DNA of 64,000 nucleotides from Candidatus Methylomirabilota bacterium (lineage in GTDB: Bacteria > Methylomirabilota > Methylomirabilia > Methylomirabilales > Methylomirabilaceae). A program made the translations under genes and the position numbers. A model generated the notes under the pieces. The model did not search any database. It was not told the origin of the DNA and saw nothing but the letters and a program-made list of their open reading frames with translations. The DNA is taken from the NCBI GenBank assembly GCA_003104975.1, contig PQAM01000008.1, positions 1 to 64,000 of the forward strand. Reading direction: 5' to 3'. Shown one piece after another: positions 26,773 to 40,158 of this stretch (the first letter of the stretch is position 1; every line of letters starts with the position of its first letter).

Positions 26773-27669
26773 ATGACCGATGTCGAGGACGTGACTCACA
26801 GAGTAGAGGGTGACATGAGTGGTGATGCGGGTGATTCGCCGAAGACGATTGGCCCGCTCTTACAGGAAGCAAGGATGGTAAAGGGCCTCACAATCGAGGC
26901 GGCAGCCGACGCCAGCAAGGTCCCCCTCTCCTTTGTCAGGCTGCTGGAGCAGGAGCAGTTCCATCTGGTCCCCGATTTCTTGTATCTGACCCGCTTTCTC
27001 ACGGAATACGCCGCGTTTCTCGGTCTCGATTCGAAACAACTCTTGGCGCAGCTTAAGACACAGGTGATTTCGAGCCGTGTGAGGGAGGTGCCACATCCAT
27101 CATCGTCAATAGGCGCTCAGCTCGATACCCGTCGCCTGCTGATCTACCTGCTGCCTGCGGTGGTCGTGATCCCCCTGATCTTCATCGGGCTCTCCCTCTT
27201 CTCAGGTCCATCGCCGACGCCCCCACCCGCTCACCAATCAGAGCCCCCGGTGCCTCAGGAGACGGTCACGCCGACTCCTGAGGCTACGACGGCAGTCCCA
27301 TCCGGCCCTCAAGGCGCCTCCCCCGGTCAGGAGCGGCCGATCGCACCGATAACACCCCAACAACAGGTCGTAGCGCCACAAATACAGCAGCCGCAACTCC
27401 AGTCCGCGCGGTATACGCTGCGCGCCGAGGCCAAGGATACGACCTGGATTTCGCTGTCCGCTGACGGCGCGCCCTTGAAAGGGGTATTGATGCGTCCCGG
27501 CGAAACCCTACAGTGGTCGGCGAACAACAGATTTGTCGTGACGATCGGTAATATCAAGGGAGTAGCCGTCTCGCTGAACGGGCGGCCGATTGCGTTAAAG
27601 GCGGACTCCGGCCTGGTGATCCGGAATCTTGTCTTACCGACAGAAGGCGGGCCCCCTGCGGGGCAGTAA
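26773..27669 (+). CDS. RodZ-like membrane protein (HTH + DUF4115)
   Basis: A 298-residue protein. An N-terminal helix-turn-helix domain (GPLLQEARMVKGLTIEAAAD...RLLEQEQFHLVPDFLY) is followed by one membrane segment (LLIYLLPAVVVIPLIFIGLSLF). After this come a Pro/Thr/Gln-rich linker and a C-terminal DUF4115-type beta domain (TTWISLSADGAPLKGVLMRPGE, later IGNIKGVAVSLNGRPI). This is the RodZ architecture; RodZ links MreB to the cell wall machinery. No mreB is nearby. The start at 26773 is the longest; ATG 26815 (MSGDAGDS) is also possible. Confidence 0.85.
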   Translation: MTDVEDVTHRVEGDMSGDAGDSPKTIGPLLQEARMVKGLTIEAAADASKVPLSFVRLLEQEQFHLVPDFLYLTRFLTEYAAFLGLDSKQLLAQLKTQVISSRVREVPHPSSSIGAQLDTRRLLIYLLPAVVVIPLIFIGLSLFSGPSPTPPPAHQSEPPVPQETVTPTPEATTAVPSGPQGASPGQERPIAPITPQQQVVAPQIQQPQLQSARYTLRAEAKDTTWISLSADGAPLKGVLMRPGETLQWSANNRFVVTIGNIKGVAVSLNGRPIALKADSGLVIRNLVLPTEGGPPAGQ

Positions 27670-27670
27670 G

Positions 27671-28615
27671 ATGGGAATGGGAGCGCATACGGGCATGGCC
27701 CACGATCACGGAGTTTCCGTCGGTCGGCGTCTGCAGATCGGGATCGTCCTGAACCTCTTATTTGCCGGGGCCGAGTTGGTGGCAGGCCTGACCGCACAAA
27801 GCCTGGCCCTCATCGGCGATGCCTGGCATAACTTCAGCGATGTTATCGGCTTGGCCATCTCATGGATTGCGCTTCGACAGGTGGAGCGCCCCGCCAATGA
27901 ACGGAAGACCTTCGGCTATCACCGGGCCAGCATCCTGGCCGCCCTTGCTAACGGGCTTGCGCTGATCGGGGTCACCCTCTGGCTGTTCTATGCGGCGATT
28001 CAACGGCTGGGGTCGCCGATTGCGCCGGAGGCGCCGATCATGATGGCGGTCGCCGGGATCGGGTGCCTGATCAATGTCGGGGTCGCCCTGTCGCTTCGGC
28101 GCGGGACCCGCGATCTCAACATCCGCAGCGCGTTCCTGCACCTGATGAGCGATGGATTCGTGTCGTTAGGCGTCGTGGTGGCCGGTGGGATTATACAGTT
28201 CGGCGGCTGGGGCCTGATCGACCCGCTCCTGAGTGTTGCGATCGGGCTGCTGGTGCTGGTCGGCTGCTGGGATATCGTGGCGGAGACCGTGAATGTGTTA
28301 ATGGAGGGCGTCCCGCGCGGGGTCCAGATGGATCGCCTGTTGCGGGCCGTGCGCAGCTTCCCGGAGGTCAAGGATGTGCACGACCTGCACGTCTGGAGCC
28401 TCAGCTCGCATGTCTATGCCATGAGCTGCCACCTGCAGGTGGCTGATCTGCAGGGGAGCTACGGCGATCGACTGCTCGACCGGATCAACCAGATGCTGAA
28501 GGAACGCTTCGGTATCGCCCACACCACATTTCAGATCGAGGCCGACGCCTGCACGCTCGAGCAGGCCTGCGCCCTCAATTCGAAGGGACCTACAACCGCT
28601 CTTCAGCCGCGCTAA
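27671..28615 (+). CDS. Cation diffusion facilitator (zinc/cobalt/iron exporter)
   Basis: CDF transporters exchange divalent metal for protons. Six membrane segments are visible, with the metal-site motifs GDAWHNFSDVIGL (HxxxD) in helix 2 and HLMSDGFVSLG (HxxxD) in helix 5. A cytosolic C-terminal domain carries VKDVHDLHVW and YAMSCHLQV. A short His-containing N-terminus (MAHDHG) fits the CzcD/ZitB type. ATG 27671 lies immediately after the RodZ-like stop (27667-27669), so the genes are probably co-transcribed. Metal specificity cannot be read from sequence; zinc is most likely. Confidence 0.92.
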   Translation: MGMGAHTGMAHDHGVSVGRRLQIGIVLNLLFAGAELVAGLTAQSLALIGDAWHNFSDVIGLAISWIALRQVERPANERKTFGYHRASILAALANGLALIGVTLWLFYAAIQRLGSPIAPEAPIMMAVAGIGCLINVGVALSLRRGTRDLNIRSAFLHLMSDGFVSLGVVVAGGIIQFGGWGLIDPLLSVAIGLLVLVGCWDIVAETVNVLMEGVPRGVQMDRLLRAVRSFPEVKDVHDLHVWSLSSHVYAMSCHLQVADLQGSYGDRLLDRINQMLKERFGIAHTTFQIEADACTLEQACALNSKGPTTALQPR

Positions 28616-28697
28616 GGCCCATTAGTTCGCCTTGTGGTTGTCTTGCTCCCGTCGGATTGCGGCCGCGCCCTTAGGTATGTACGCCTGTCCCGCCTGG

Positions 28698-28785
28698 TCA
28701 TTGCGAGCGACCAACGGGAGCGCGGCAATCTCACTGTCGTTGTTCTGAAGAACTGTGAGATTGCTTCGGCTCCGCCTCGCAATGA
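28698..28785. repeat. 88-bp palindromic dispersed repeat, family A, copy 2
   Basis: A second copy of the element at 1733-1820, same length and orientation, with the same TCATTGCGAG / CTCGCAATGA ends. It lies between the convergent CDF exporter and CbiX-like genes. Confidence 0.85.
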
Positions 28786-28808
28786 CTCGGAAAGCGCTTA
28801 AGGCCTTG

Positions 28809-30491
28809 TCAATTGCTCCCCTCTCGCGCTACGGGTGTGTTCTGCAGTCCGGTGGCATCAAGCCAGTTTTCGATCTGTTCCTCGATCCAGCGTGTGAAGT
28901 GTGGATGCGACGCGATACCCTGGTCGTTTAGGGTGTAGTCGAGGCCGGAGAGCAATTTCCGGTATGGGCCGGCCCCGGCGATTCGGTTCGAGATGACAAG
29001 AACCCGCCCGCCCTCTCTTTGCGTTTGTTCGATTGTTTTCCGAACCTCCGCCACGGCGCGCTTGCTCTTCTCCGGCCAGTCCTCGCGCACGGTGGCGACC
29101 TTGATGGCCTTGAACTTCGCGGGGGCCTTTTTTCGAATAAACTCGGCCCGCTTCTCCAGTTGCTCGATCCAGAACCGTTCATCCTCGTCGTCGCCGGAAC
29201 CGTGGGCCAGGAGGATCACCGTCTCCCGATCCGGGGCCTGGCTCACCTCGAGGGTGCGCTGCAGGAGGATCACGGCGATTAGGGGGTGGTCACCGAACCC
29301 GCCACTCGTGGACAGTATCGCCCCGCTCCTGATGCGGGACGGCCCGCTCTTCTCGTTGTGACTGTGGCTCACAGCGCCCATTGTGCTTCTGAGGCCCAGA
29401 ACGAACTCGGTCTCCGCCTGGAAGCTCTGCGGGAGGTCGTAGAGTCGGAGGACGTGGATCCTTCTGGCGCCCCGCGCCTCGACCTTATCGATGGCCGCCT
29501 GGAGGGTGTCGTCATCGGCCATCCCGAAGGCCACCTCGATGTTGTACCTCTGTCGCAGCGGCTCAACAGCAGAAAGAATCCGCGCATTGTAGTATTCACC
29601 CGCGCCGTGCGCCATGACGACAATGCCAACCTCCTCCCTGCGAAGCGGGAGGTAGTGGCTGGCCGTTTTGCGAAGCCAGCGTAACACGAGAGGATCGGGG
29701 AGGAGTTCCCGGCCATCGTAGGCGCCGGCGCCGCCGCTCAGCAGCGACTCGATCTTTTGGCTCAGCCGCATCGATCCGGTGTGCTTGTACCCCAGATGGA
29801 AGGGGACCACCAGCGTGCGGAGGTCGGTCTTCTTGATCGCCCTCACGATGGTTGTCTCGGCCAGCGCGTTCCCCTGATCTCTGACGGCATCGGGGGCCTG
29901 GCCGGCGTACAAGATCGCGATGGACATATCAGCCAGGTGAAGGGTCTTCTTGACCTCGGCCGCAAGGCGCTCCAGCTCGCGGGTCATTGCGTCAGCTTCC
30001 TCCGGCGAGGTCGCCCCAAAACCGATCACGACGAGCCGCTCTTTACTCGGCTCCTTTGAGAGGGTTCTGACGCGGTCTTCGAGGATCTGCTGAGCCGGCG
30101 AGCTTCCACCAAACACCGGCGCAATCCGGATCTTGGCGCTCGCCAGGATCTCCCTGGCCTTTTTCAGGTGGGGATCTGCTTCAGAGACGACAAAAGGAAT
30201 CAGCACGATCTCCGTTGCTCCCTCGCGCTGCATCTCAGCAACGGCGCCCTCCAGTGTCGCGCGGACATCTCGCTGGTAGTCCTCGGACAGGGAAATAAAG
30301 ACCAGGCGGGTGAGGTGCGAGTTGTCGAATTCGGCCCACGCGGTCTTGATCTCTTCGTTGCCAAGATACCCGCGATCAGGGGCGATCACCAGAAAGCCTG
30401 GTGAGGGTAGGGTAGCGAGGGCGGAGGACTCGAGTCCAATAGCTATCGCCACCACAATCCACACTGTAAAGGTCCGAGTCAGCGTATGCAT
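28809..30491 (-). CDS. Exported double CbiX-like chelatase-family protein
   Basis: A 560-residue protein with an N-terminal signal peptide (TFTVWIVVAIAIGLESSALA). Two CbiX/SirB-like modules carry VVMAHGAGEYYN and VILLAHGSGDDEDE, where the His corresponds to the metal-insertion His of sirohydrochlorin chelatases. A first region (LVFISLSEDYQRDV, EIVLIPFVVSEADPHLKKAREIL) looks like a further, degenerate module. Ordinary CbiX is cytosolic and under 300 residues, so export and length are both unusual. It is the last gene of the TonB/heme unit, 36 bp after the receptor gene, so a role in handling an imported tetrapyrrole or metal chelate is inferred. Confidence 0.75.
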   Translation of the reverse strand: MHTLTRTFTVWIVVAIAIGLESSALATLPSPGFLVIAPDRGYLGNEEIKTAWAEFDNSHLTRLVFISLSEDYQRDVRATLEGAVAEMQREGATEIVLIPFVVSEADPHLKKAREILASAKIRIAPVFGGSSPAQQILEDRVRTLSKEPSKERLVVIGFGATSPEEADAMTRELERLAAEVKKTLHLADMSIAILYAGQAPDAVRDQGNALAETTIVRAIKKTDLRTLVVPFHLGYKHTGSMRLSQKIESLLSGGAGAYDGRELLPDPLVLRWLRKTASHYLPLRREEVGIVVMAHGAGEYYNARILSAVEPLRQRYNIEVAFGMADDDTLQAAIDKVEARGARRIHVLRLYDLPQSFQAETEFVLGLRSTMGAVSHSHNEKSGPSRIRSGAILSTSGGFGDHPLIAVILLQRTLEVSQAPDRETVILLAHGSGDDEDERFWIEQLEKRAEFIRKKAPAKFKAIKVATVREDWPEKSKRAVAEVRKTIEQTQREGGRVLVISNRIAGAGPYRKLLSGLDYTLNDQGIASHPHFTRWIEEQIENWLDATGLQNTPVAREGSN

Positions 30492-30527
30492 GTATCTCCT
30501 TCTCCTCCTTCTCCTCAGTTCAGATAT

Positions 30528-33500
30528 TTAGAATCTCCACTCCAACCCCAGCAGAAACGTGCGCCCGGCCTCTTCCACCTTACGGCTCGTTGTGCCGTCG
30601 GCCGCCTTCTCTCGCTCGATTCGCTTCTCATCGGTCACGTTCTCGGCCTCAAAGAACAAAGCGACATTTTTGTAGACGCGCTGATGGACGGCCACGTCAA
30701 CGGTAGAGGAGGGTTTGATCGCCCTCACGCCCCCCTCCGGCTTGAATTCCTTACGTCGTCCGATGTGGTTCCACGCGATGGATGCCGTTGTCCCCAAAGA
30801 GGCGAGGGTATAATCCATCCCTGCGTTCGCGATGACGCGCGGCTGATCTTTGAACCGTCGCTTCCGCCCACTCTTGTCCCGCACTGCCGACTCCAGGAAC
30901 GTCTGGTTGGCCCAGAGCATGAAGCCTCCGAGAACGTCGAGGCCGGTCACGCTGAGGTCGAGCCGCTGCTCGATCTCGGCGCCGCGGGTCCACCCGTCAC
31001 CGACGTTCTGGACCCGGAAGACATCCTTGCCCTCCTTGTCAATACCTGTATCCACTTCCTCGATGACGTCAGAGATCCGCTTGTAAAACAGGTTCACGCC
31101 TAAAAAGAGCCGCGCAGTGGCGAACTCTCCGCCGGCGTCGAAATTCCACGATTTGGCGGGGTCGAGGTTGGGATTGCCGACCGTGATTTTTTTTCCATCG
31201 TCCTGCTCGAATGGCGACAGCTCGTCGAACTTGGGGCGATTGACCGCTCGGGAGACGGCCGCCCGGAGGCTCAGGTCGTCCCGGAAGCGGTAGAGGAGGT
31301 GGACCGACGGATTCGTGTCGGTGACGCTCCTGCTGCCGCGGGTATCGTCGCCGGCGCGGGAGTCGAGGCTCACATGCTCAAGCCGGACGCCGGGGAGCAC
31401 GCTGATCCGGTCGGTCAGCCACACGGTGTCTTGGATAAAGGCGGCGAAGTAGTCCTCTAAAAGGTCGTATTTGTCCTTCGGCTTGGTCGTATCCTTGCGT
31501 TTGCCCGCCTTGTCGATCTCCAGGGCATCCTTGTCCCGAAACCGGTCCCGGGATCGAAAGGCGCCGCCGAACTTCAGCTCCTGTCGCAGGCCGATGACGA
31601 ACGGCACGGCGACCGACGTGGAGACGTTCCACGTCCGGTCCTCCTTCCGTTCCGACTCGACGGTGGTCTTGTCGACGGCAAATACGCCGGCGCTCTCCTT
31701 GAAGGCCAGCTTGTCCTTATCTTTGTCCTCTTCGGTCAGGTAATAGCCGACCAGCGTCTCCCAGGTAAGGCCGCTCGCGAAGGTATGCCGGTGACCCAGC
31801 CCGATCCCCCAAGTCTGTGCCGAGGAGACCTCTTCCTCTTGTTCCTTCGTCGAGGCCTTGCTGGGATCCCGTACGATTTTGGTCTTCTGCTTGTCCTTGT
31901 CGAGATCGAGGAGGAGCGGCTTCAGGTGGAGCTCGCCCGGACCGTAGAACAACCCCAGGTCCAGATTGAAATTTTTAGAGACCTGATCCTCGGAGTCGTC
32001 TTCGACCTCGGTTTTGCCCGTCGAGAACAGCTTCTGCTTGGGGCGCTCGAAGGCGTTGTCGAGGTAATCGAAGGCACCCATAATTCCAAACCACGAGCTG
32101 GGGCGGTAGCCGAACCCGAGCGCGGCGTTCAGGATCTCCCCGTCCAGATCGCCTCGGCCGCCTGCACCCACACGCCCCTCCACCGTCGGCTCCACCGGGA
32201 TCGGACGGGTGTGGATATCGATGCGTCCGGCAAGTCCGTCGCTCTCGAATTCCGCTGTCGGATTCCGAATGATGCGAATGCGATCGAGCATGAACGAGGG
32301 GATCCGGTTGACCTGAAATTCGCGTTTCTCGCCGCCACCGGGCAACTGAACCCCGTCCACCTGAATACGCGTGAATTCTTTGTCGAGCCCACGCAGGCGG
32401 ACGTCGTTTCGCTCTCCCGGTGGACCCTCAAGATAGAGACCGGGCATCCTTTGAAGCACGTCGCCGGCCCGCCGGTTGTTCCGGATCGTGAACTCCTCAC
32501 GGGAGGTTTCGGCCTGTGGCACCGGATCGACCAGACGCCTTCTTTCCGAGATTGCCGTCTCATCGACAACCACCTCCGGCAGGCGGAGGCTCTGTCTCTG
32601 CTCGAGCGTGTCGAGCTCGGCTGGCTGAGCCAGCGCCGGCCCCCCGTGGAGAACTGCCAGAAACAATGCGATCGCCGCGCAGCCACGACCACCGTTTCCC
32701 CGTTGAAGCCGAAGCCTTCTCCGCCTTGCCAACGTCGGATAGATCCACAGATAGAGTCCCGTGCCGACGAAGAGAACGAAGCCGATCGCCGTGATGTCAT
32801 AGAGCAGCCAGAGCCGGTCGGCGAACAGCTTCCCTGTATGGAGGTCGGTCAGATATTTATCCAGCGCCATTCGCGGTATCGCGGCCGTGGCCAGAAGCGC
32901 CAATTGCTTACCGCCCAATTCACTCACTTCGCCCGATGTCTGGTTGTAGCGATAGAGGCCGTTGTGCGTGCCAACGAGTACCGTCTCCTGATGCCCGGGA
33001 GCAAAGGCAATGGCCACGACGTGGCGGGACTTCTCATCGATGGGGAGCACGGCGCTGACATCTTCCCAGTGCGCCCCACCATCGCGCGAGCGGTAGAGGC
33101 CGTTCTGCGTTCCCATCCAGACGGACCGCGGATGCAACAGCGATAATTGGAGGGTTCGCACTTCCAGCTTCTTGCCCCCACCTAGCGGCCCGTCCTTGAT
33201 CGGTGCCCAGGTGCGCCCGCGGTCCAGGCTCTGGAAAAGCCCCCAGCGCGTTCCGGCCAGCCACCTCTCGTCGGTTGCAAGCAACGCGGTAACTTCCACG
33301 CCATCGAGGTCGCCTCCCGCTCGCGCCCACCTGCTCTCCTGTTGCATCATTAACCCGGCCTTGGTTCCGGTGAGCAGGGCGCTCTCGGTCAGTTCCTTCG
33401 TCCCAACGGCTACGGCCTTGATCTCTCTCGCCTTTTCCGCCATCTCTCGTGCGTACCAGCTCGGGATGAGAGCGCCCGACACCTCGGTCGTCCTCAGGAT

Positions 33501-33620
33501 CGACGCAAGATCCTTCTTGTGTACGAGGACCAGCCCCGTCACACCGATGACGGTGACGAACACGGCCAGCACGACACCGACCCACGTGTGGACTTTCCGA
33601 TTCAGCGTGATGAAACTCAT
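30528..33620 (-). CDS. PepSY/BNR membrane protein fused to a TonB-dependent receptor
   Basis: A 1030-residue protein in two parts. Residues 1-300 have a first membrane helix (VHTWVGVVLAVFVTVIGVTG), BNR-type repeats (GLFQSLDRGRTWAPI, GLYRSRDGGAHWEDV) and a PepSY-type end helix (LHTGKLFADRLWLLYD...TGLYLW). Residues 310-331 are then a classic signal peptide (CAAIALFLAVLHGGPALA), followed by a TonB plug (RRAGDVLQRMPGLYLEG, VRLRGLDKEFTRIQVDG) and a 22-strand-type barrel ending FLLGLEWRF. An in-frame TTG at 32730-32732 (residue 297) could start the receptor separately. With hemP nearby, heme or another iron chelate is the likely ligand. Confidence 0.85.
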   Translation of the reverse strand: MSFITLNRKVHTWVGVVLAVFVTVIGVTGLVLVHKKDLASILRTTEVSGALIPSWYAREMAEKAREIKAVAVGTKELTESALLTGTKAGLMMQQESRWARAGGDLDGVEVTALLATDERWLAGTRWGLFQSLDRGRTWAPIKDGPLGGGKKLEVRTLQLSLLHPRSVWMGTQNGLYRSRDGGAHWEDVSAVLPIDEKSRHVVAIAFAPGHQETVLVGTHNGLYRYNQTSGEVSELGGKQLALLATAAIPRMALDKYLTDLHTGKLFADRLWLLYDITAIGFVLFVGTGLYLWIYPTLARRRRLRLQRGNGGRGCAAIALFLAVLHGGPALAQPAELDTLEQRQSLRLPEVVVDETAISERRRLVDPVPQAETSREEFTIRNNRRAGDVLQRMPGLYLEGPPGERNDVRLRGLDKEFTRIQVDGVQLPGGGEKREFQVNRIPSFMLDRIRIIRNPTAEFESDGLAGRIDIHTRPIPVEPTVEGRVGAGGRGDLDGEILNAALGFGYRPSSWFGIMGAFDYLDNAFERPKQKLFSTGKTEVEDDSEDQVSKNFNLDLGLFYGPGELHLKPLLLDLDKDKQKTKIVRDPSKASTKEQEEEVSSAQTWGIGLGHRHTFASGLTWETLVGYYLTEEDKDKDKLAFKESAGVFAVDKTTVESERKEDRTWNVSTSVAVPFVIGLRQELKFGGAFRSRDRFRDKDALEIDKAGKRKDTTKPKDKYDLLEDYFAAFIQDTVWLTDRISVLPGVRLEHVSLDSRAGDDTRGSRSVTDTNPSVHLLYRFRDDLSLRAAVSRAVNRPKFDELSPFEQDDGKKITVGNPNLDPAKSWNFDAGGEFATARLFLGVNLFYKRISDVIEEVDTGIDKEGKDVFRVQNVGDGWTRGAEIEQRLDLSVTGLDVLGGFMLWANQTFLESAVRDKSGRKRRFKDQPRVIANAGMDYTLASLGTTASIAWNHIGRRKEFKPEGGVRAIKPSSTVDVAVHQRVYKNVALFFEAENVTDEKRIEREKAADGTTSRKVEEAGRTFLLGLEWRF

Positions 33621-33784
33621 CTGGACATGACCTCACCGGTCGAGATGCGTTGAGGTTGCTCGGCTTGTCCACAACATTGCAGGCATGGGGGGTGAGGCGC
33701 GCGTCCTGACGTCTCATCGAATGTGGGGACCGACGTTTCCCGGTATTGAGCGCCGGCGACCCGACATCCGTGCTTGACCCACAT
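33617..33784 (-). CDS. Small Cys-rich ORF coupled to the receptor gene
   Basis: A 55-residue frame starting at ATG 33784 with a strong AAAGGAG site 7 bp upstream and ending with an ATGA overlap of the receptor-fusion start. It contains PPCLQCCGQ, three Cys close together, and a further Cys near the N-terminus. I know no family. The coupling and ribosome binding site support real translation, either as a small protein or as a leader that sets expression of the large gene. Confidence 0.5.
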   Translation of the reverse strand: MWVKHGCRVAGAQYRETSVPTFDETSGRAPHPPCLQCCGQAEQPQRISTGEVMSR

Positions 33785-33883
33785 ACGAGTCTCCTTTCTT
33801 CCCGGATGCATCCGGGGATCAGGTGGCTCGCTGCCAGGAGTCGGACGTCGGCTCCGTGGTGGCTGGCTGGTTAACCCGAGGTT

Positions 33884-34099
33884 TTACTTCGTGAGGATCA
33901 ATTTCCCATTGCGCGTGATACGCAAGACGTACTCCTGTCCCTCGTGAATGATCACAAGCTCCCGATCGCGCTGGAACAGCGTCGCGCTCTCGATTTTCCG
34001 TCGGCAATGCACCGGCGGGGACGAGGCCGCCAGGCGATCAGTCCTGTGTGCGGACGGCGCCTGTTTCATCATGGTCGTATCACTCTGTGCATCGATCAT
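33884..34099 (-). CDS. hemP: Hemin uptake protein HemP
   Basis: A 71-residue protein whose C-terminal half (ESATLFQRDRELVIIHEGQE, then YVLRITRNGKLILTK) matches HemP, a small basic protein found beside heme-uptake receptor genes and often required for their expression. Only the last 45 residues belong to the family; the N-terminal part is variable, so ATGs at 34072 or 34069 are also possible starts. It lies 27 bp after tonB and 100 bp before the Cys-rich ORF, inside one leftward unit. It is the best clue that the neighbouring receptor takes up heme. Confidence 0.88.
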   Translation of the reverse strand: MIDAQSDTTMMKQAPSAHRTDRLAASSPPVHCRRKIESATLFQRDRELVIIHEGQEYVLRITRNGKLILTK

Positions 34100-34125
34100 C
34101 TACAACTCTTGGCTGGCATGCCCGG

Positions 34126-35106
34126 TCACCTCAACATGAACCGGACCGGCAGCGTCACCCACACGGCGACCGGCCGGTTCCCCTGTCGGGCGGGCTCAAA
34201 CCGCCACTTCTTCACCGCCTCCAGGGCTGCCCGGTCCAGGTCTCGGTGCCCGGCGGACCGCTCTATCAGGGCCTTATCGACCGTACCATCGGCCCGGATT
34301 TCGAACCTGAGGAGGCTTACGCCCTCGATCCCCTCTCGCCGCGCCGAATCCGGATACCGGGGCCTGATCTGATAGCCCCCCAGAGGCCGAGCGAGCCGGG
34401 TTGGACCTCCCGCCCCTCCTCCAGGTCCCTCGCCGCCGGCTCCCGGGTTGATCCCTGTCACCTTCTCTGCTCCGCCGGTCCTGCCCAGGCCCAGACCGTT
34501 GTTCCCCGCGCCTCCGCTACCTCCGCCGTTTCCGGTTCCAGGCATGGCCACAACGTCTCCCTTCGGCGATAGGCTTCCGGCCCCCGCTTCCCCGCCTTCA
34601 ACCGGCGTCACAGGGTTCCTTTCGGCCGGGGAGGTCGGTCCGAGCAGGTTGCCTTGACGACCCGTCGTATTGATGGCCGGCAGGGGAAGGAGGGGGCCGG
34701 GCTCCAGCTTGGCCGGCGTCTTGGTCTCGGCAGAGGGAAGGGGTCCGGGAGGAAGCTCTTTCGCCTCACGGGGATAGTCCATGGGCACCGGGAACGAGGG
34801 GACCGCTACCGGCTCCTCAATCGAGGGGAGCTTCGAAGCAGACTCAGCCGTGTCGGCTACAGGTCGCTCCTTCAGGCGCGGCGGCGTGATGTGCTCTGAC
34901 GCTTTCGGCCTGGCCATCTCTTTTTGTGGTGAGGGGGGAGGCAGCGGGAGCGAAGGAGCCGTGGTTATCACCTCAATCGGAATAAGCTCCGTCGGCAGCG
35001 ACCGGTCGCTCAGCTCGATCAGGCGCGGGATAGAGGCGAGGCCTGCCATATGGACCAGGACCGAGGTGACTAAGGGATATGTGAAGAGTTTCGATCGTAT
35101 TGTCAT
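34126..35106 (-). CDS. tonB: TonB energy transducer
   Basis: A 326-residue protein with one N-terminal membrane anchor (LFTYPLVTSVLVHMAGLASI), a long Pro-rich middle, a Gly-rich spacer (GNGGGSGGAGNNGLG) and a C-terminal TonB domain (YPDSARREGIEGVSLLRFEI, later DRAALEAVKKWRFEPA). It passes proton-motive energy to outer-membrane receptors. Its start overlaps exbD by 4 bp. Serving the receptor encoded two genes downstream is the natural assumption. Confidence 0.93.
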   Translation of the reverse strand: MTIRSKLFTYPLVTSVLVHMAGLASIPRLIELSDRSLPTELIPIEVITTAPSLPLPPPSPQKEMARPKASEHITPPRLKERPVADTAESASKLPSIEEPVAVPSFPVPMDYPREAKELPPGPLPSAETKTPAKLEPGPLLPLPAINTTGRQGNLLGPTSPAERNPVTPVEGGEAGAGSLSPKGDVVAMPGTGNGGGSGGAGNNGLGLGRTGGAEKVTGINPGAGGEGPGGGAGGPTRLARPLGGYQIRPRYPDSARREGIEGVSLLRFEIRADGTVDKALIERSAGHRDLDRAALEAVKKWRFEPARQGNRPVAVWVTLPVRFMLR

Positions 35107-35516
35107 CTCTGTGCTCCTGCAGGCTTCACGGCGATGGCGAGACGGCCGACGCCCGCCCCGCGCGCCGCATCCATAGCCTCCACGACGCGCCCGTGGGGGA
35201 CGCCCTCGTCTGCATTGAGGATGATGGCCAGGTTGGGATTGTTGGCCAGAAGGGCTTTGAGAGCGTCCGGGAGCGCCTCCAACGAGATCGATTGCTTGTT
35301 CAAATAGAGTCGCCCCTCCTGGGTCACCGTCAGCGAGGCGTGCTCCTGCAGGGCGTGCTGGCCGCTTGCGGCAGTGGGGAGGTTGACGGGCATCCCCCGG
35401 TAGACGGCCATGGAAAGAGACGCCATCATGAAAAAGACCAGGAGGAAGAAGACCGTATCGATCATCGGGATGATTTCGATGCGCGCTTTCTGGGGTGCGT
35501 GGCGAAGAAGCTTCAC
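35103..35516 (-). CDS. exbD: ExbD/TolR-type biopolymer transporter
   Basis: A 137-residue protein with a single membrane helix (IPMIDTVFFLLVFFMMA) containing the conserved Asp (IDTVF) that carries protons, and a periplasmic ExbD/TolR domain. It forms the proton channel with ExbB. The start overlaps exbB and the stop overlaps tonB, each by 4 bp, so the three are tightly coupled. The length is normal. Confidence 0.93.
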   Translation of the reverse strand: MKLLRHAPQKARIEIIPMIDTVFFLLVFFMMASLSMAVYRGMPVNLPTAASGQHALQEHASLTVTQEGRLYLNKQSISLEALPDALKALLANNPNLAIILNADEGVPHGRVVEAMDAARGAGVGRLAIAVKPAGAQR

Positions 35517-36115
35517 GACCGATCTTCCTTCAACATCAACTCGAGTCGAGAGCCGTAGTGCTCTATTTCGCCGAGGGTTCGCTCGATTCTTGCGGAGAAG
35601 TAGTTATAGGGGACGAGGGTGGCGATGGCGATCCCGAGGCCCGTGGCGGTCGCAATGAGAGCCTCGGCGACGCCGCCGGTGATGGCGTTGGGTTGGTTGA
35701 TGCCACTGGACGCCATAACCCCGAAAGCGCTGATCATGCCGGTAACGGTGCCGAGCAGCCCCAGCAGCGGCGAGAGGGTGATCACGGTATCGAGGATCGG
35801 CAGGTGCCTCCGCAATCGGGCCAGTTCCCTGTGAACAGCAGCCTCCATCGCCAGCGTGGCGGAAGGGTTTTTGTGGCAGATCCCCGCTGCCAGGACCCGC
35901 GCGATCGGGGAAGGAGAAGCCTCGCCAAGACGGATCGCATCTTCCCAGTGAGCCCTCGCCGCCAGTTGCAGCGTCCGATCGGCATCCGCGGAAGAGCGGC
36001 GTTGCCACCAGAACCACCCCCGCTCGATGATCACAGCGAGGGACAGTACGGAACAGCAGAGCAGGGGGATCATCACCGGCCCCCCTTTGATGAGCACAGC
36101 AACCAACGCGGACAC
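35513..36115 (-). CDS. exbB: ExbB/TolQ-type proton channel protein
   Basis: A 200-residue MotA/TolQ/ExbB-family protein with three membrane helices: GPVMIPLLCCSVLSLAVII near the start, LSPLLGLLGTVTGMISAF and GLGIAIATLVPYNYF. The LLGLLGTVTGMI motif is diagnostic. It opens the exbB-exbD-tonB trio, 26 bp after the XRE regulator gene on the same strand. Confidence 0.93.
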   Translation of the reverse strand: MSALVAVLIKGGPVMIPLLCCSVLSLAVIIERGWFWWQRRSSADADRTLQLAARAHWEDAIRLGEASPSPIARVLAAGICHKNPSATLAMEAAVHRELARLRRHLPILDTVITLSPLLGLLGTVTGMISAFGVMASSGINQPNAITGGVAEALIATATGLGIAIATLVPYNYFSARIERTLGEIEHYGSRLELMLKEDRS

Positions 36116-36141
36116 CTTTTTCCCCTCCTTGATCTCTTTAG

Positions 36142-36513
36142 TTAGCCCTTCCGACCCAGGATCTCCTTGATGAAGATCCGAAGTTTCTTGAGAGCCGCCT
36201 TATCCCGACTGGCAGCTAGGGTTGTCACGAGGCCAATAACCTCCTGGGCCTCTGAACACCGTTCGGACGACCCCAGAGGGAACTGGAACAGGTCTTCGAC
36301 TCGAACGTCTAGGGCGGAGGCGATCTTTTGAAGTGTCTTTAATGTGGGATTACATCGCCCCGCTTCGATGCGCTGAAGGTATTTGTAGTTCAGACTCTTC
36401 GCCTCTACCGCGTCCTGGCGAAGCCCGCGCGCTGATCGAAGGGCCCTGAGCCTTTTGCCCAGTAAGACCTGAACAGTTGGAGGTAGTCTCTCGGAACCGA
36501 TCTGCCTACTCAT
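36142..36513 (-). CDS. XRE-family transcription regulator
   Basis: A 123-residue protein with an XRE helix-turn-helix at residues 20-75 (GKRLRALRSARGLRQDAVEA, KSLNYKYLQRIEAGRCNPT, LKTLQKIASALDVRVEDLF) and a Lys-rich helical tail. It is directly upstream of exbB by 26 bp and likely in the same transcript, so it may regulate the iron/heme unit; this is inference, as no operator is visible. It is divergent from the ferritin-like gene. Confidence 0.9.
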   Translation of the reverse strand: MSRQIGSERLPPTVQVLLGKRLRALRSARGLRQDAVEAKSLNYKYLQRIEAGRCNPTLKTLQKIASALDVRVEDLFQFPLGSSERCSEAQEVIGLVTTLAASRDKAALKKLRIFIKEILGRKG

Positions 36514-36633
36514 AGCAAGGTTGACATCTTCCGCTATGGGGTCTAAGTTATGAAGTATTCAGGGCGCTTTCTACGCCGCAACGTTATCGCCTTACTCTCT
36601 CAGCCTGTAAGGCCCAGAGGAAAGGAGGAAGCC

Positions 36634-37092
36634 ATGGACGTTCAGCGGGTGATCGCAGGGCTCAATCGAGTGTTGGCCATCGAATATGCAGCCATGATTC
36701 AGTACCTCCAGGACAGCGTCCTGATCCAGGGCCTCGAGCGGGCATACCTTGCCGACTTCTTCAGGGACCGGGCCAAAGATGAGATGGGGCATGCCGAGCG
36801 CCTCGGCGATAAGATCGTGGCGTTGGGCGGCGTCCCCACCATTGAACCGGCGCTGATCACCCAATCGCTCGAAGTGGCCGAGATGTTTAGGCAGGGCCTG
36901 GCGGCGGAACGGGATGCCCTTACGGCCCTGAAGGCGCTGCTGCAGGAGGTACAGGACGATGTCGCCCTCCGGGTGATGATCGAGCAACTCTGTCACGATA
37001 CGCAGGGACACATCGAGAGCTTCGAAAAGCTCCTGGCCCAGAAGCGATTGGTCATCGCTACCAAAGAGGTGCGCCTCAAACAGGTCGCCTGA
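36634..37092 (+). CDS. Ferritin-like / bacterioferritin-type protein
   Basis: A 152-residue four-helix protein. Helix 1 has LNRVLAIEYAAMIQYLQDS and helix 2 AKDEMGHAERLGDKI, giving the E and ExxH iron ligands. Helix 3 has AAERDALTALKALLQ and helix 4 QLCHDTQGHIESFEKLL, supplying the second E and ExxH-like set. It fits the bacterioferritin/Dps-like iron storage superfamily. I chose ATG 36634 because AAAGGAGGAA sits just upstream. It is divergent from the XRE regulator and flanked by iron genes. Confidence 0.85.
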   Translation: MDVQRVIAGLNRVLAIEYAAMIQYLQDSVLIQGLERAYLADFFRDRAKDEMGHAERLGDKIVALGGVPTIEPALITQSLEVAEMFRQGLAAERDALTALKALLQEVQDDVALRVMIEQLCHDTQGHIESFEKLLAQKRLVIATKEVRLKQVA

Positions 37093-37122
37093 TCCAAGGC
37101 CGCTGCTTCCTCATCGGAACTC

Positions 37123-37485
37123 TCAGGGACAGAGCGAGAGGCTCAATCCTTGAGGGTTCCTTTGTGTGTATTGGCTGATTTTGCATGTCATTTTCAATGT
37201 CGGGATAGACGATTTCACTCGCCCGGCGCCCCTCCCCAGAATTGTTTTCAGAGCCCTGATCTGAAGCGGATCGAGCCGTATACGCTTCTGGATATACCAG
37301 CCGATCCCTTCGCCATAGCCTAAGAGACGAAGCTCCAGTTTCGTTTTGCCTTTAGAGGCCAGAAGGGCGATCTCGAGTCGGGTTGTTCCGTCCTCATTGA
37401 ACTGCCCGCCCAGATTGAACTCCTTTTCCTGAACCGCCACCCTCCTGTCTTTCTCCTCTACTGCCATTTGATGCTCTTGAAGCAT
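37123..37485 (-). CDS. Conserved-looking hypothetical protein
   Basis: A 120-residue soluble protein with charged N-terminus and a beta-rich centre (TRLEIALLASKGKTKLELRL) followed by WYIQKRIRLDPLQIRALKTIL. I do not recognise the family. The start ATG at 37485 follows AAGGAGG with good spacing, so translation is likely. It lies 62 bp after the four-helix membrane gene on the same strand and may be the last gene of that operon. Confidence 0.6.
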   Translation of the reverse strand: MLQEHQMAVEEKDRRVAVQEKEFNLGGQFNEDGTTRLEIALLASKGKTKLELRLLGYGEGIGWYIQKRIRLDPLQIRALKTILGRGAGRVKSSIPTLKMTCKISQYTQRNPQGLSLSLCP

Positions 37486-37547
37486 ACGAACACCTCCTTG
37501 CTATTTAGTGCCCAAAAAAGCGCCAGAATATTTTTCACATTCATCCC

Positions 37548-38060
37548 TCATTCTGCCTTTCGGAGATCGTCCCGGTAGGCGTTGGGAACCTTCATGTAAA
37601 GCGCACCGAGGACGGAGACGATCAGCGCTGCCATGGTGGTCTGAAGGAGAAGGAACGCGCCGATCTTGACGTAGGCGAAAGAGGGATGCGCAAACCGGAT
37701 CAACCAGCCCGCGGCCTCGTTGGAAATCGCCGACAGGAAGGTCAGGTGTATCAGCCAGATCTTGATCAGAGGCCTGAAGGGCACGAACAGCACGAGGTGG
37801 CTCAGCGTCAGGATGAAGATGCCCATGGCCAGAAGATGGAAATGGCTGATCTCGAGCAAGACCTTGTAGCTGCGAGGCGGCATGAACTGCTCCTCCGATC
37901 CCCTGTAATAGGCGACGACAGACTCGTAATTAAGCCCCATCTGGTTAAAGAAGAACAATGCGTTGGTGAGCCACAGGCCCGCACTGTAGACGAGAAACCA
38001 CAGAATGATAGCGCGCAGGAGCCGGTTCTGGGTCCACTCCCCTGTGACGACGAAACGCAT
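37548..38060 (-). CDS. Four-helix integral membrane protein
   Basis: A 170-residue membrane protein with four hydrophobic helices: LRAIILWFLVYSAGLWLTNA, HFHLLAMGIFILTLSHLVLF, IWLIHLTFLSAISNEAAGWL and GAFLLLQTTMAALIVSVLGA. Several His lie in or next to helices 2 and 3 (ISHFHLL, LSHLV, LIHLT), which could bind heme b, but this is only suggested by position. The start overlaps the FMN-binding gene as TAATG, a sign of a shared complex. No family name is offered. Confidence 0.72.
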   Translation of the reverse strand: MRFVVTGEWTQNRLLRAIILWFLVYSAGLWLTNALFFFNQMGLNYESVVAYYRGSEEQFMPPRSYKVLLEISHFHLLAMGIFILTLSHLVLFVPFRPLIKIWLIHLTFLSAISNEAAGWLIRFAHPSFAYVKIGAFLLLQTTMAALIVSVLGALYMKVPNAYRDDLRKAE

Positions 38061-38718: not shown

Positions 38719-40158
38719 CTAAAAAGCGAACCCGAGGCCGACGTTCACCTCATCAGCTACCTTCCCGGCCGCCGCATTGAAGGCGCGATAGTCAAACTTG
38801 AACACCACATTGGGGATCGGCTTGAAGTCAATACCGCTGGCGATCACCCGAAGATCGTTCGACGCGACACGGGTCACGCCGGTGGGGACATCGGCCTGGG
38901 TATCCAGCCGCTCGAACCGAATGAACGGGGTCAGCGACATCGTGGTCTCAGGCCATAACAGAGGCAGGACGTTATAGGCCGCCTCTATGTACCCTCCCAA
39001 CAGACGCCGGCTGATGGAACGCTTCAGATCGGCGCTCAAGACGGCGGCGTCGCTGAGGTTACCCTGCGCGTACAGCGCGCGAAGGTGCAGCCCTCGGTAC
39101 TGATACTGACCATGAAACTCAAAGAGTGTGAAGTTCGGATTGATCTTCTTCCCCGCAAACAACTGATCCTGTCCGGTGGTACCCCAGAAGAATGAGCCCC
39201 CTACCAGAGCGCCCGGGATCGGGCTGTAATCGAGGCGGCCGGTCCAGGCTACGTCCTCGAACAGGGCTCGGTTTCCGCTCTGACGGGCTCCTCGGAAGTT
39301 GGCGGTGTTAAAGCCTTTGGCGTTCAGGCTGTTTACGGCATAGGTCCGGTACGTCAGCCCCGGCAGAATCGTGCCGTGAAACCCGGCCCCCAACTCCCGC
39401 CAGGTGGACGGGATGATCCGTTGCTCCACCTCCGGCCTTATGTTGCCAAAGAAGGTTGGGGGCTCGTGCATCTCATTCAGGAATCCCATCGGGATCAGGA
39501 GCAGCCCCGCCCTGAAGTTGAGCCAGTCCGTGAAGAGGAAATCCAGGTTGGCGAATTCGACCTCGACATCTCCGCTGCCTGAGCTCGTCGTGGCTCCAAC
39601 CTTCGCATGTTCGAACTCGATCTCTGAGTTCAGGACGATCCGGTCGGTAAACTTATATCCGATATAGGTCACGAAGCGCAACAGGTCACCGAAGTTTCGC
39701 TGCTTGCCCGGTTGGTCCTTGTCGTTGACGAAGAAGATGGCGCTGGCCTCTCCGTAGCCGCCGATGGCGAGCCCTCGCTGTGTCTGATAGACCTTCGATG
39801 CCGCCGGACCCAGGCCGTAGGCGCTCTTGAGCTCGGCCGTCTCGGGCAGGATGTACCGCTTCTTGATCGCCTCCATCTCCTCGGCGAGGATGCTGGTCTT
39901 CCGCTCCTGTTCTTCTCCTCGCTTGGCCTGCTCTCGTAGTGCCTCAGCTTCTTTGGCGGCCCGCTCCTTCTCGGCCGCCTCGATTTCCCGCATCCTTCGG
40001 TCCTGCTCCTGCTTGTCCTGCTTGAGCAGTTCGATTTGCGCCTGAAGTTCCTTCAGTTGTTTCTCCAGCACTTCTAATGGTGGTGTCGCCGCGACCGCTA
40101 TGATAGGCGAAGCCATTCCGACTATCAATGCGGCCGTGAGACATCGCAGCAACCTCAT
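38719..40158 (-). CDS. Coiled-coil outer-membrane porin
   Basis: A 479-residue protein with signal peptide (LRCLTAALIVGMASPIIAVA), a long charged coiled coil (about residues 28-105, many K/E/R/Q heptads) and a beta-barrel-like remainder with alternating aromatic residues, ending NVGLGFAF. This is the layout of phosphate-selective-porin-like (OprP/OprO) or related carbonate/iron-associated porins. The substrate is unknown. It lies between apbE and the flavoprotein gene, which suggests it admits a substrate of that redox system. Confidence 0.8.
   Translation of the reverse strand: MRLLRCLTAALIVGMASPIIAVAATPPLEVLEKQLKELQAQIELLKQDKQEQDRRMREIEAAEKERAAKEAEALREQAKRGEEQERKTSILAEEMEAIKKRYILPETAELKSAYGLGPAASKVYQTQRGLAIGGYGEASAIFFVNDKDQPGKQRNFGDLLRFVTYIGYKFTDRIVLNSEIEFEHAKVGATTSSGSGDVEVEFANLDFLFTDWLNFRAGLLLIPMGFLNEMHEPPTFFGNIRPEVEQRIIPSTWRELGAGFHGTILPGLTYRTYAVNSLNAKGFNTANFRGARQSGNRALFEDVAWTGRLDYSPIPGALVGGSFFWGTTGQDQLFAGKKINPNFTLFEFHGQYQYRGLHLRALYAQGNLSDAAVLSADLKRSISRRLLGGYIEAAYNVLPLLWPETTMSLTPFIRFERLDTQADVPTGVTRVASNDLRVIASGIDFKPIPNVVFKFDYRAFNAAAGKVADEVNVGLGFAF

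Follow-up and report, generated by a model that had tools for sequence, protein, structure and literature searches.

A single open reading frame joining a PepSY_TM/BNR-like inner-membrane unit to a TonB-dependent receptor beside exbB-exbD-tonB and hemP

The locus and its fused reading frame

The window, i.e., the whole stretch of 64,000 nucleotides analyzed here, includes a same-strand locus in which genes for an HTH regulator, ExbB, ExbD, TonB, and HemP are followed by a single long open reading frame and then by a gene for a CbiX-like protein (Table 1). Apart from the long frame, the locus genes exbB, exbD, tonB, hemP, and the CbiX-like gene all read intact. The frame runs on the minus strand from an ATG at 33620 to a stop ending at 30528 and is free of internal stops, so that the uninterrupted 1030 codons of the original prediction were borne out. 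It comprises, in order, a PepSY_TM-type unit, an 11-residue joint, a signal peptide, and a complete TonB-dependent receptor, and Pfam matches likewise upheld the proposal that two parts with different cellular addresses share one frame. The source genome consists of 3.0 Mb in 19 contigs, and the fusion is known from this one assembly.

Table 1 Features of the fusion-bearing locus, in order of transcription, with window coordinates
Feature	Position	Strand	Basis
HTH regulator	36142..36513	-	Pfam
ExbB	35513..36115	-	Pfam
ExbD	35103..35516	-	Pfam
TonB	34126..35106	-	Pfam, NCBIfam
HemP (PF10636, 8.8e-18)	33884..34099	-	Pfam
55-codon leader ORF with strong Shine-Dalgarno site; its TGA overlaps the ATG of the fusion (ATGA)	33617..33784	-	Comparison with G010, Shine-Dalgarno energies
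Fusion ORF, 1030 aa	30528..33620	-	ATG start, no internal stop
PepSY_TM/BNR-like inner-membrane unit, residues 1-302	32715..33620	-	Pfam PepSY_TM, Ycf48-type matches, alignment with G010/G006/G009/G004
TTG297, sole in-frame ATG/GTG/TTG close upstream of the h-region	32730..32732	-	Shine-Dalgarno at background
Joint, residues 303-313 (LRLQRGNGGRG), poor codon adaptation	32682..32714	-	Sequence and codon statistics
Signal-peptide h-/c-region, residues 314-331, predicted signal peptidase I cut after Ala331	32628..32681	-	Sequence, hydropathy
TonB-box-like LPEVVVD, residues 347-353	32562..32582	-	Sequence resemblance
Mature TonB-dependent receptor, residues 332-1030: plug 372-465, barrel 598-995, C-terminal Phe	30528..32627	-	Pfam
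Exported two-domain CbiX-like protein, downstream of the fusion	28809..30491	-	CbiX match just below Pfam cut-off

The N-terminal unit is laid out as a first transmembrane helix (TM1), a periplasmic BNR-like loop, a second helix (TM2), and then RRRR. Pfam placed PepSY_TM (PF03929) at residues 9–45 with 33.7 bits against a family cut-off of 28.8, and PepSY_TM_like_2 at residues 256–294 with a score under its cut-off. The PepSY domain proper (PF03413) had no Pfam match in the fusion, the periplasmic loop being BNR-like instead; for this loop the Pfam match was weak (PSII_BNR, E = 0.013), but the BNR assignment is supported by matches to NCBIfam NF045728 (5e-15, under its cut-off) and to Ycf48/HCF136 in the PDB (1e-4). 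In an alignment with four relatives (G010, G006, G009, and G004), His11, His34, and His261 fall on invariant histidines, and on this basis the PepSY_TM histidines of the fusion sit on both membrane faces. We predict that the unit is likely a haem-carrying metal-complex reductase and likely reduces iron, haem, or other metal complexes once these have been imported. Searching genome contigs with the PepSY/BNR half returned only an unrelated sensor-kinase propeller protein (Siphonobacter).

The internal signal peptide reads RGNGGRG-CAAIALFLAVLH-GGPALA/QP, where the slash marks the predicted cut, and can be divided into an n-region RRRRLRLQRGNGGRG, an h-region CAAIALFLAVLH at about residues 314–325, and a c-region GGPALA before QP, with LPEVVVD further on. 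This agrees with the signal peptide originally placed near residues 310–331, and both its cut site (ALA/Q, 331/332) and the TonB-box-like motif are internal to the ORF. The h-region has a hydropathy of 2.68 over 12 residues, comparable to the 2.83 of the separate receptor encoded by G010. Downstream, the plug (PF07715, 2.7e-14) and the barrel (PF00593, 1e-46) were both recovered by Pfam, and the sequence ends in Phe. Both halves are complete by domain content and alignment, including the PepSY_TM histidines and the terminal Phe of the barrel. For the substrate class of the receptor, no NCBIfam model reached its cut-off, and the adjacent hemP suggests haem or iron. Structure prediction with AlphaFold2 on the single fusion sequence was uninformative (mean pLDDT 33.8).

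Two further features of the locus lie on either side of the fusion. The CbiX-like protein, which adjoins the TonB/HemP locus, has two class II chelatase-like domains with their HG motifs kept, and may handle a metal or tetrapyrrole in the periplasm. The 55-codon leader is poorly conserved in the close relative G013; a role as a CruR-like regulator was considered and rejected because its Cys residues are not kept there. No Rfam family was detected within 27000–38000.

The two halves in related genomes

At the syntenic locus of the sister genome G010 (L035), ExbB, ExbD, TonB, HemP, a receptor, a PepSY_TM protein, and a CbiX-like protein are encoded in this order. The G010 receptor (768 aa) has its own signal peptide and is 47–48% identical to the receptor of the fusion, while the PepSY_TM protein (240 aa, with a PepSY-like loop) begins 25 bases after it, i.e., in the order opposite to that of the fusion. 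Downstream of exbB-exbD-tonB, G006, G009, and G004 encode first a more distantly related receptor and then a separate PepSY/BNR protein composed of two TM-BNR-TM units, the second of which comes after an RRRR tail. Close relatives thus bear on the original prediction in two ways, as all four have two separate genes but carry the halves in the opposite order. The two-unit PepSY_TM variant (L037, 8955–10784; L038, 8496–10046; L039, 10128–11885), located directly after the receptor in exbB-exbD-tonB loci of the genus, has BNR-like loops in place of PepSY domains.

The fusion is unique within the genomes sampled. Among 15 congeneric genomes, one of 75 plug domains was fused, in the window's frame (1034 codons in this count), and all other plug-containing frames had 857 codons or fewer. 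Across 95 genomes of the phylum, the fusion was the only PepSY_TM match seen to share its frame with a receptor; G056 had one weak match, below cut-off, in a 1108-codon frame interrupted by a TGA. A tblastn search of 72,556 plasmids yielded receptors of only about 24–32% identity, none spanning the fusion. Among the best of these plasmid matches, two (L041 and L042; 28–32% identity) adjoin phytase genes.

Codon statistics, start sites, and competing accounts of the junction

We evaluated the junction through codon statistics computed on the genes of the window only. The fusion frame was the best coding frame nearly throughout, except at residues 286–340, where its log-odds were close to 0 and frame +1 scored equally. 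The codon adaptation of codons 296–332 was 0.47, below that of 98.9% of such stretches in the other window genes, and similarly low values were found at gene starts, namely those of the signal-peptide genes at 28809 (0.48) and 38719 (0.41) and of the G010 receptor (0.47). Because these codons are poorly adapted in the way that starts of signal-peptide genes are, a receptor gene that was once separate seems to have its start buried at codons 296–332. Taken with the separate genes of relatives, this apparent buried start indicates, on sequence grounds, that the fusion arose from two genes. Between the halves, neither a promoter-like site nor a clear excess of terminator signal was found.

A lost stop or a frameshift, one of three accounts in the original prediction, fits both the separate genes of relatives, which lie in the reverse order, and the resemblance of the junction codons to a buried gene start, although no single substitution in codons 297–313 restores two complete genes. 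If one substitution made a stop at 297, 301, 306, or 308, no start codon would remain for the receptor ahead of its h-region. When a single insertion sets the halves apart, the result is mostly a long gene overlap, and the few compact outcomes of single-base changes mostly use TTG297, which removes the conserved RRRR tail of TM2, or give an n-region without positive charge.

These same outcomes weigh against the most serious alternative, namely that the organism has two separate genes, which a base missed in sequencing or assembly, or an artefact of the same effect, has merged into one frame. Such an error would account for the separate genes of relatives and for the drop in coding signal at residues 286–340. 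It also retains some weight because frame +1 fits residues 303–331 better than the fusion frame does (0.73 vs. 0.52), an excess reached by 0.4% of stretches elsewhere and by 1.1% of gene starts, although the signal-peptide gene at 38719–40158 shows the same preference for frame +1. In addition, frame +1 offers a GTG at 32686 with a moderate Shine-Dalgarno site (−6.3), from which a short signal peptide would be made if one base were missing. Against this stand the long overlaps or defective products of most separating insertions, the failure of substitutions at the junction, and the intact state of the other locus genes, and we consider a missed base unlikely. Given the poorly adapted junction codons, either a very recent event or a base error is possible.

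Improbable, too, is a fusion that marks the onset of decay and yields a non-functional product. The close relative G013 does carry the same locus in decay, with the receptor down to 52 codons, exbB-exbD-tonB reduced, and the CbiX-like gene frameshifted, but in the fusion-bearing genome all locus genes are intact, and the receptor and PepSY halves retain their coding statistics, complete domains, and end signals.

Quite improbable, finally, is a real chain whose receptor comes mainly from initiation within the frame, at TTG297 or at some non-standard codon, with the full-length product as a by-product: TTG297 would supply a 35-residue arginine-rich signal peptide, and codons 296–332 look as if a start works or once worked there, but its Shine-Dalgarno energy (−3.1, with −7.2 for ATG1 and −1.7 for ATG251) equals the background (median −3.2), the RRRR that follows it belongs to the upstream protein because it aligns with the conserved TM2 tail of relatives, and, in the absence of a stop, all ribosomes from ATG1 would read through. 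The internal TTG originally put forward as a receptor start is therefore a weak candidate.

A candidate polyprotein, its known counterparts, and its history

The reading that we favor, with confidence and doubt about evenly balanced, is a real, lineage-specific, and probably recent fusion of a PepSY_TM/BNR protein with the TonB receptor from an iron- or haem-type uptake locus, giving a polyprotein that signal peptidase I would cleave in two. More tentatively, and with doubt somewhat outweighing confidence, we propose that this is a natural polyprotein from which signal peptidase I parts an inner-membrane metal-complex reductase from an outer-membrane TonB receptor, so that two proteins for different membranes would be synthesized in a fixed one-to-one ratio. 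Among the three accounts first proposed, cleavage of a polyprotein is the best supported, by the open frame, the intact internal signal peptide, and the topology, with the cleavage itself being a prediction from sequence.

Under the polyprotein reading, the ribosome would make one chain from ATG1, of which TM1 (in-to-out) and TM2 (out-to-in) would insert first, so that the BNR loop would lie in the periplasm and RRRR in the cytoplasm. Next, the internal signal peptide would enter the translocon N-in/C-out, and signal peptidase I would cut after Ala331 and release the receptor. Because the proteins of G006, G009, and G004 have a second TM-BNR-TM unit after RRRR, the signal peptide would hold the place and orientation of their third transmembrane helix. 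The two-helix unit would remain in the inner membrane, while the receptor would cross the periplasm to the outer membrane and be driven by the neighboring ExbB-ExbD-TonB. Without the cut, the chain would scarcely be able to work as a receptor in the outer membrane, because the about 40 residues between the cut site and the plug (332–371) would span at most about 140 Å when stretched, and the periplasm is about 200 Å wide.

A cleaved chain of this general type is known from FbcH, the cytochrome b/c1 precursor of Bradyrhizobium japonicum, in which an inner-membrane protein and an exported protein are made as one chain and an internal signal sequence is cleaved. Both FbcH products stay in one inner-membrane complex, whereas one product of the present fusion would need to reach the outer membrane. 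Receptors joined to the uptake machinery also exist in the MxcH type (NCBIfam NF038079, a cross-match of the TonB protein of the locus), which carries a TonB C-terminal domain at its N-terminus. As far as is known, this added domain is soluble and periplasmic, and so, unlike the fusion, it brings no conflict of cellular address.

The closest functional parallels are PepSY_TM proteins encoded beside TonB receptors, for which a function as periplasmic haem-dependent metal reductases is established or has been proposed (PMC13001220, PMC13038864, PMC12914433). As separate genes, such pairs are familiar (PMC13001220), and >75% of crtA loci have a PepSY_TM gene after that for the receptor (PMC12914433). 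FoxB binds two haems through conserved histidines at both membrane faces, and CrpH needs the equivalent residues (PMC13038864). The fusion resembles FoxB, HiuB, and CrpH (pairs HiuA-HiuB and CrtA-CrpH) in that a PepSY_TM protein with conserved histidines is encoded with a TonB-dependent receptor (PMC13001220, PMC13038864, PMC12914433). These systems consist of separate genes, receptor first, with at least four transmembrane helices and PepSY loops, whereas the fusion has two helices only, a BNR-like loop, the reversed order, and one ORF. The pairs of G006, G009, and G004, along with the PepSY version of G010, are nearer, sharing the genus, the exbB-exbD-tonB setting, and homologous PepSY_TM helices, but differ in having separate genes, the receptor upstream, and two TM-BNR-TM units (except for the G010 PepSY protein beside hemP). 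In the literature library searched, no description of a PepSY-receptor fusion was found; the pairing itself is known, and the new part would be its fused, single-ORF form.

TonB receptors and their PepSY_TM partners are neighbors in many iron and copper uptake loci, yet they belong to different membranes. If the fusion works, an outer-membrane receptor can be delivered from within a polytopic inner-membrane protein by way of an internal signal peptide, and receptor and PepSY_TM partner would be tied directly in function. If it instead reflects a base error or decay, it calls for caution in deducing multi-address fusions from one assembly.

Comparison with G010 and G013 gives some indication of how the locus was assembled. 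The alignment of G010 with the window continues through hemP to 33779, just beyond the Shine-Dalgarno site and start (ATGTGG) of the G010 receptor, and this start corresponds to window position 33784, which now opens the 55-codon leader. What is left in G013 is the leader region plus the final 52 codons of the receptor (protein 87% identical), with everything between, including the fusion junction region, gone. A deletion is the probable cause of this loss, because a short stretch of similar sequence (CTCAACGCATCT / ATCAGCGCGTCT) marks the point where the two ends are joined. Since G013 shares the leader and the receptor end, the PepSY/BNR-receptor cassette, or at least the receptor, would have replaced a G010-like pair before G013 and the window lineage parted. 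In the decaying G013 locus (L036, 6351–11320 of G013:C1:60001-80000), the leader is joined in frame to these 52 codons, exbD is lost and ExbB runs into the end of TonB, a frameshift splits the CbiX-like gene, and between that gene and the receptor remnant lies a histidine kinase gene.
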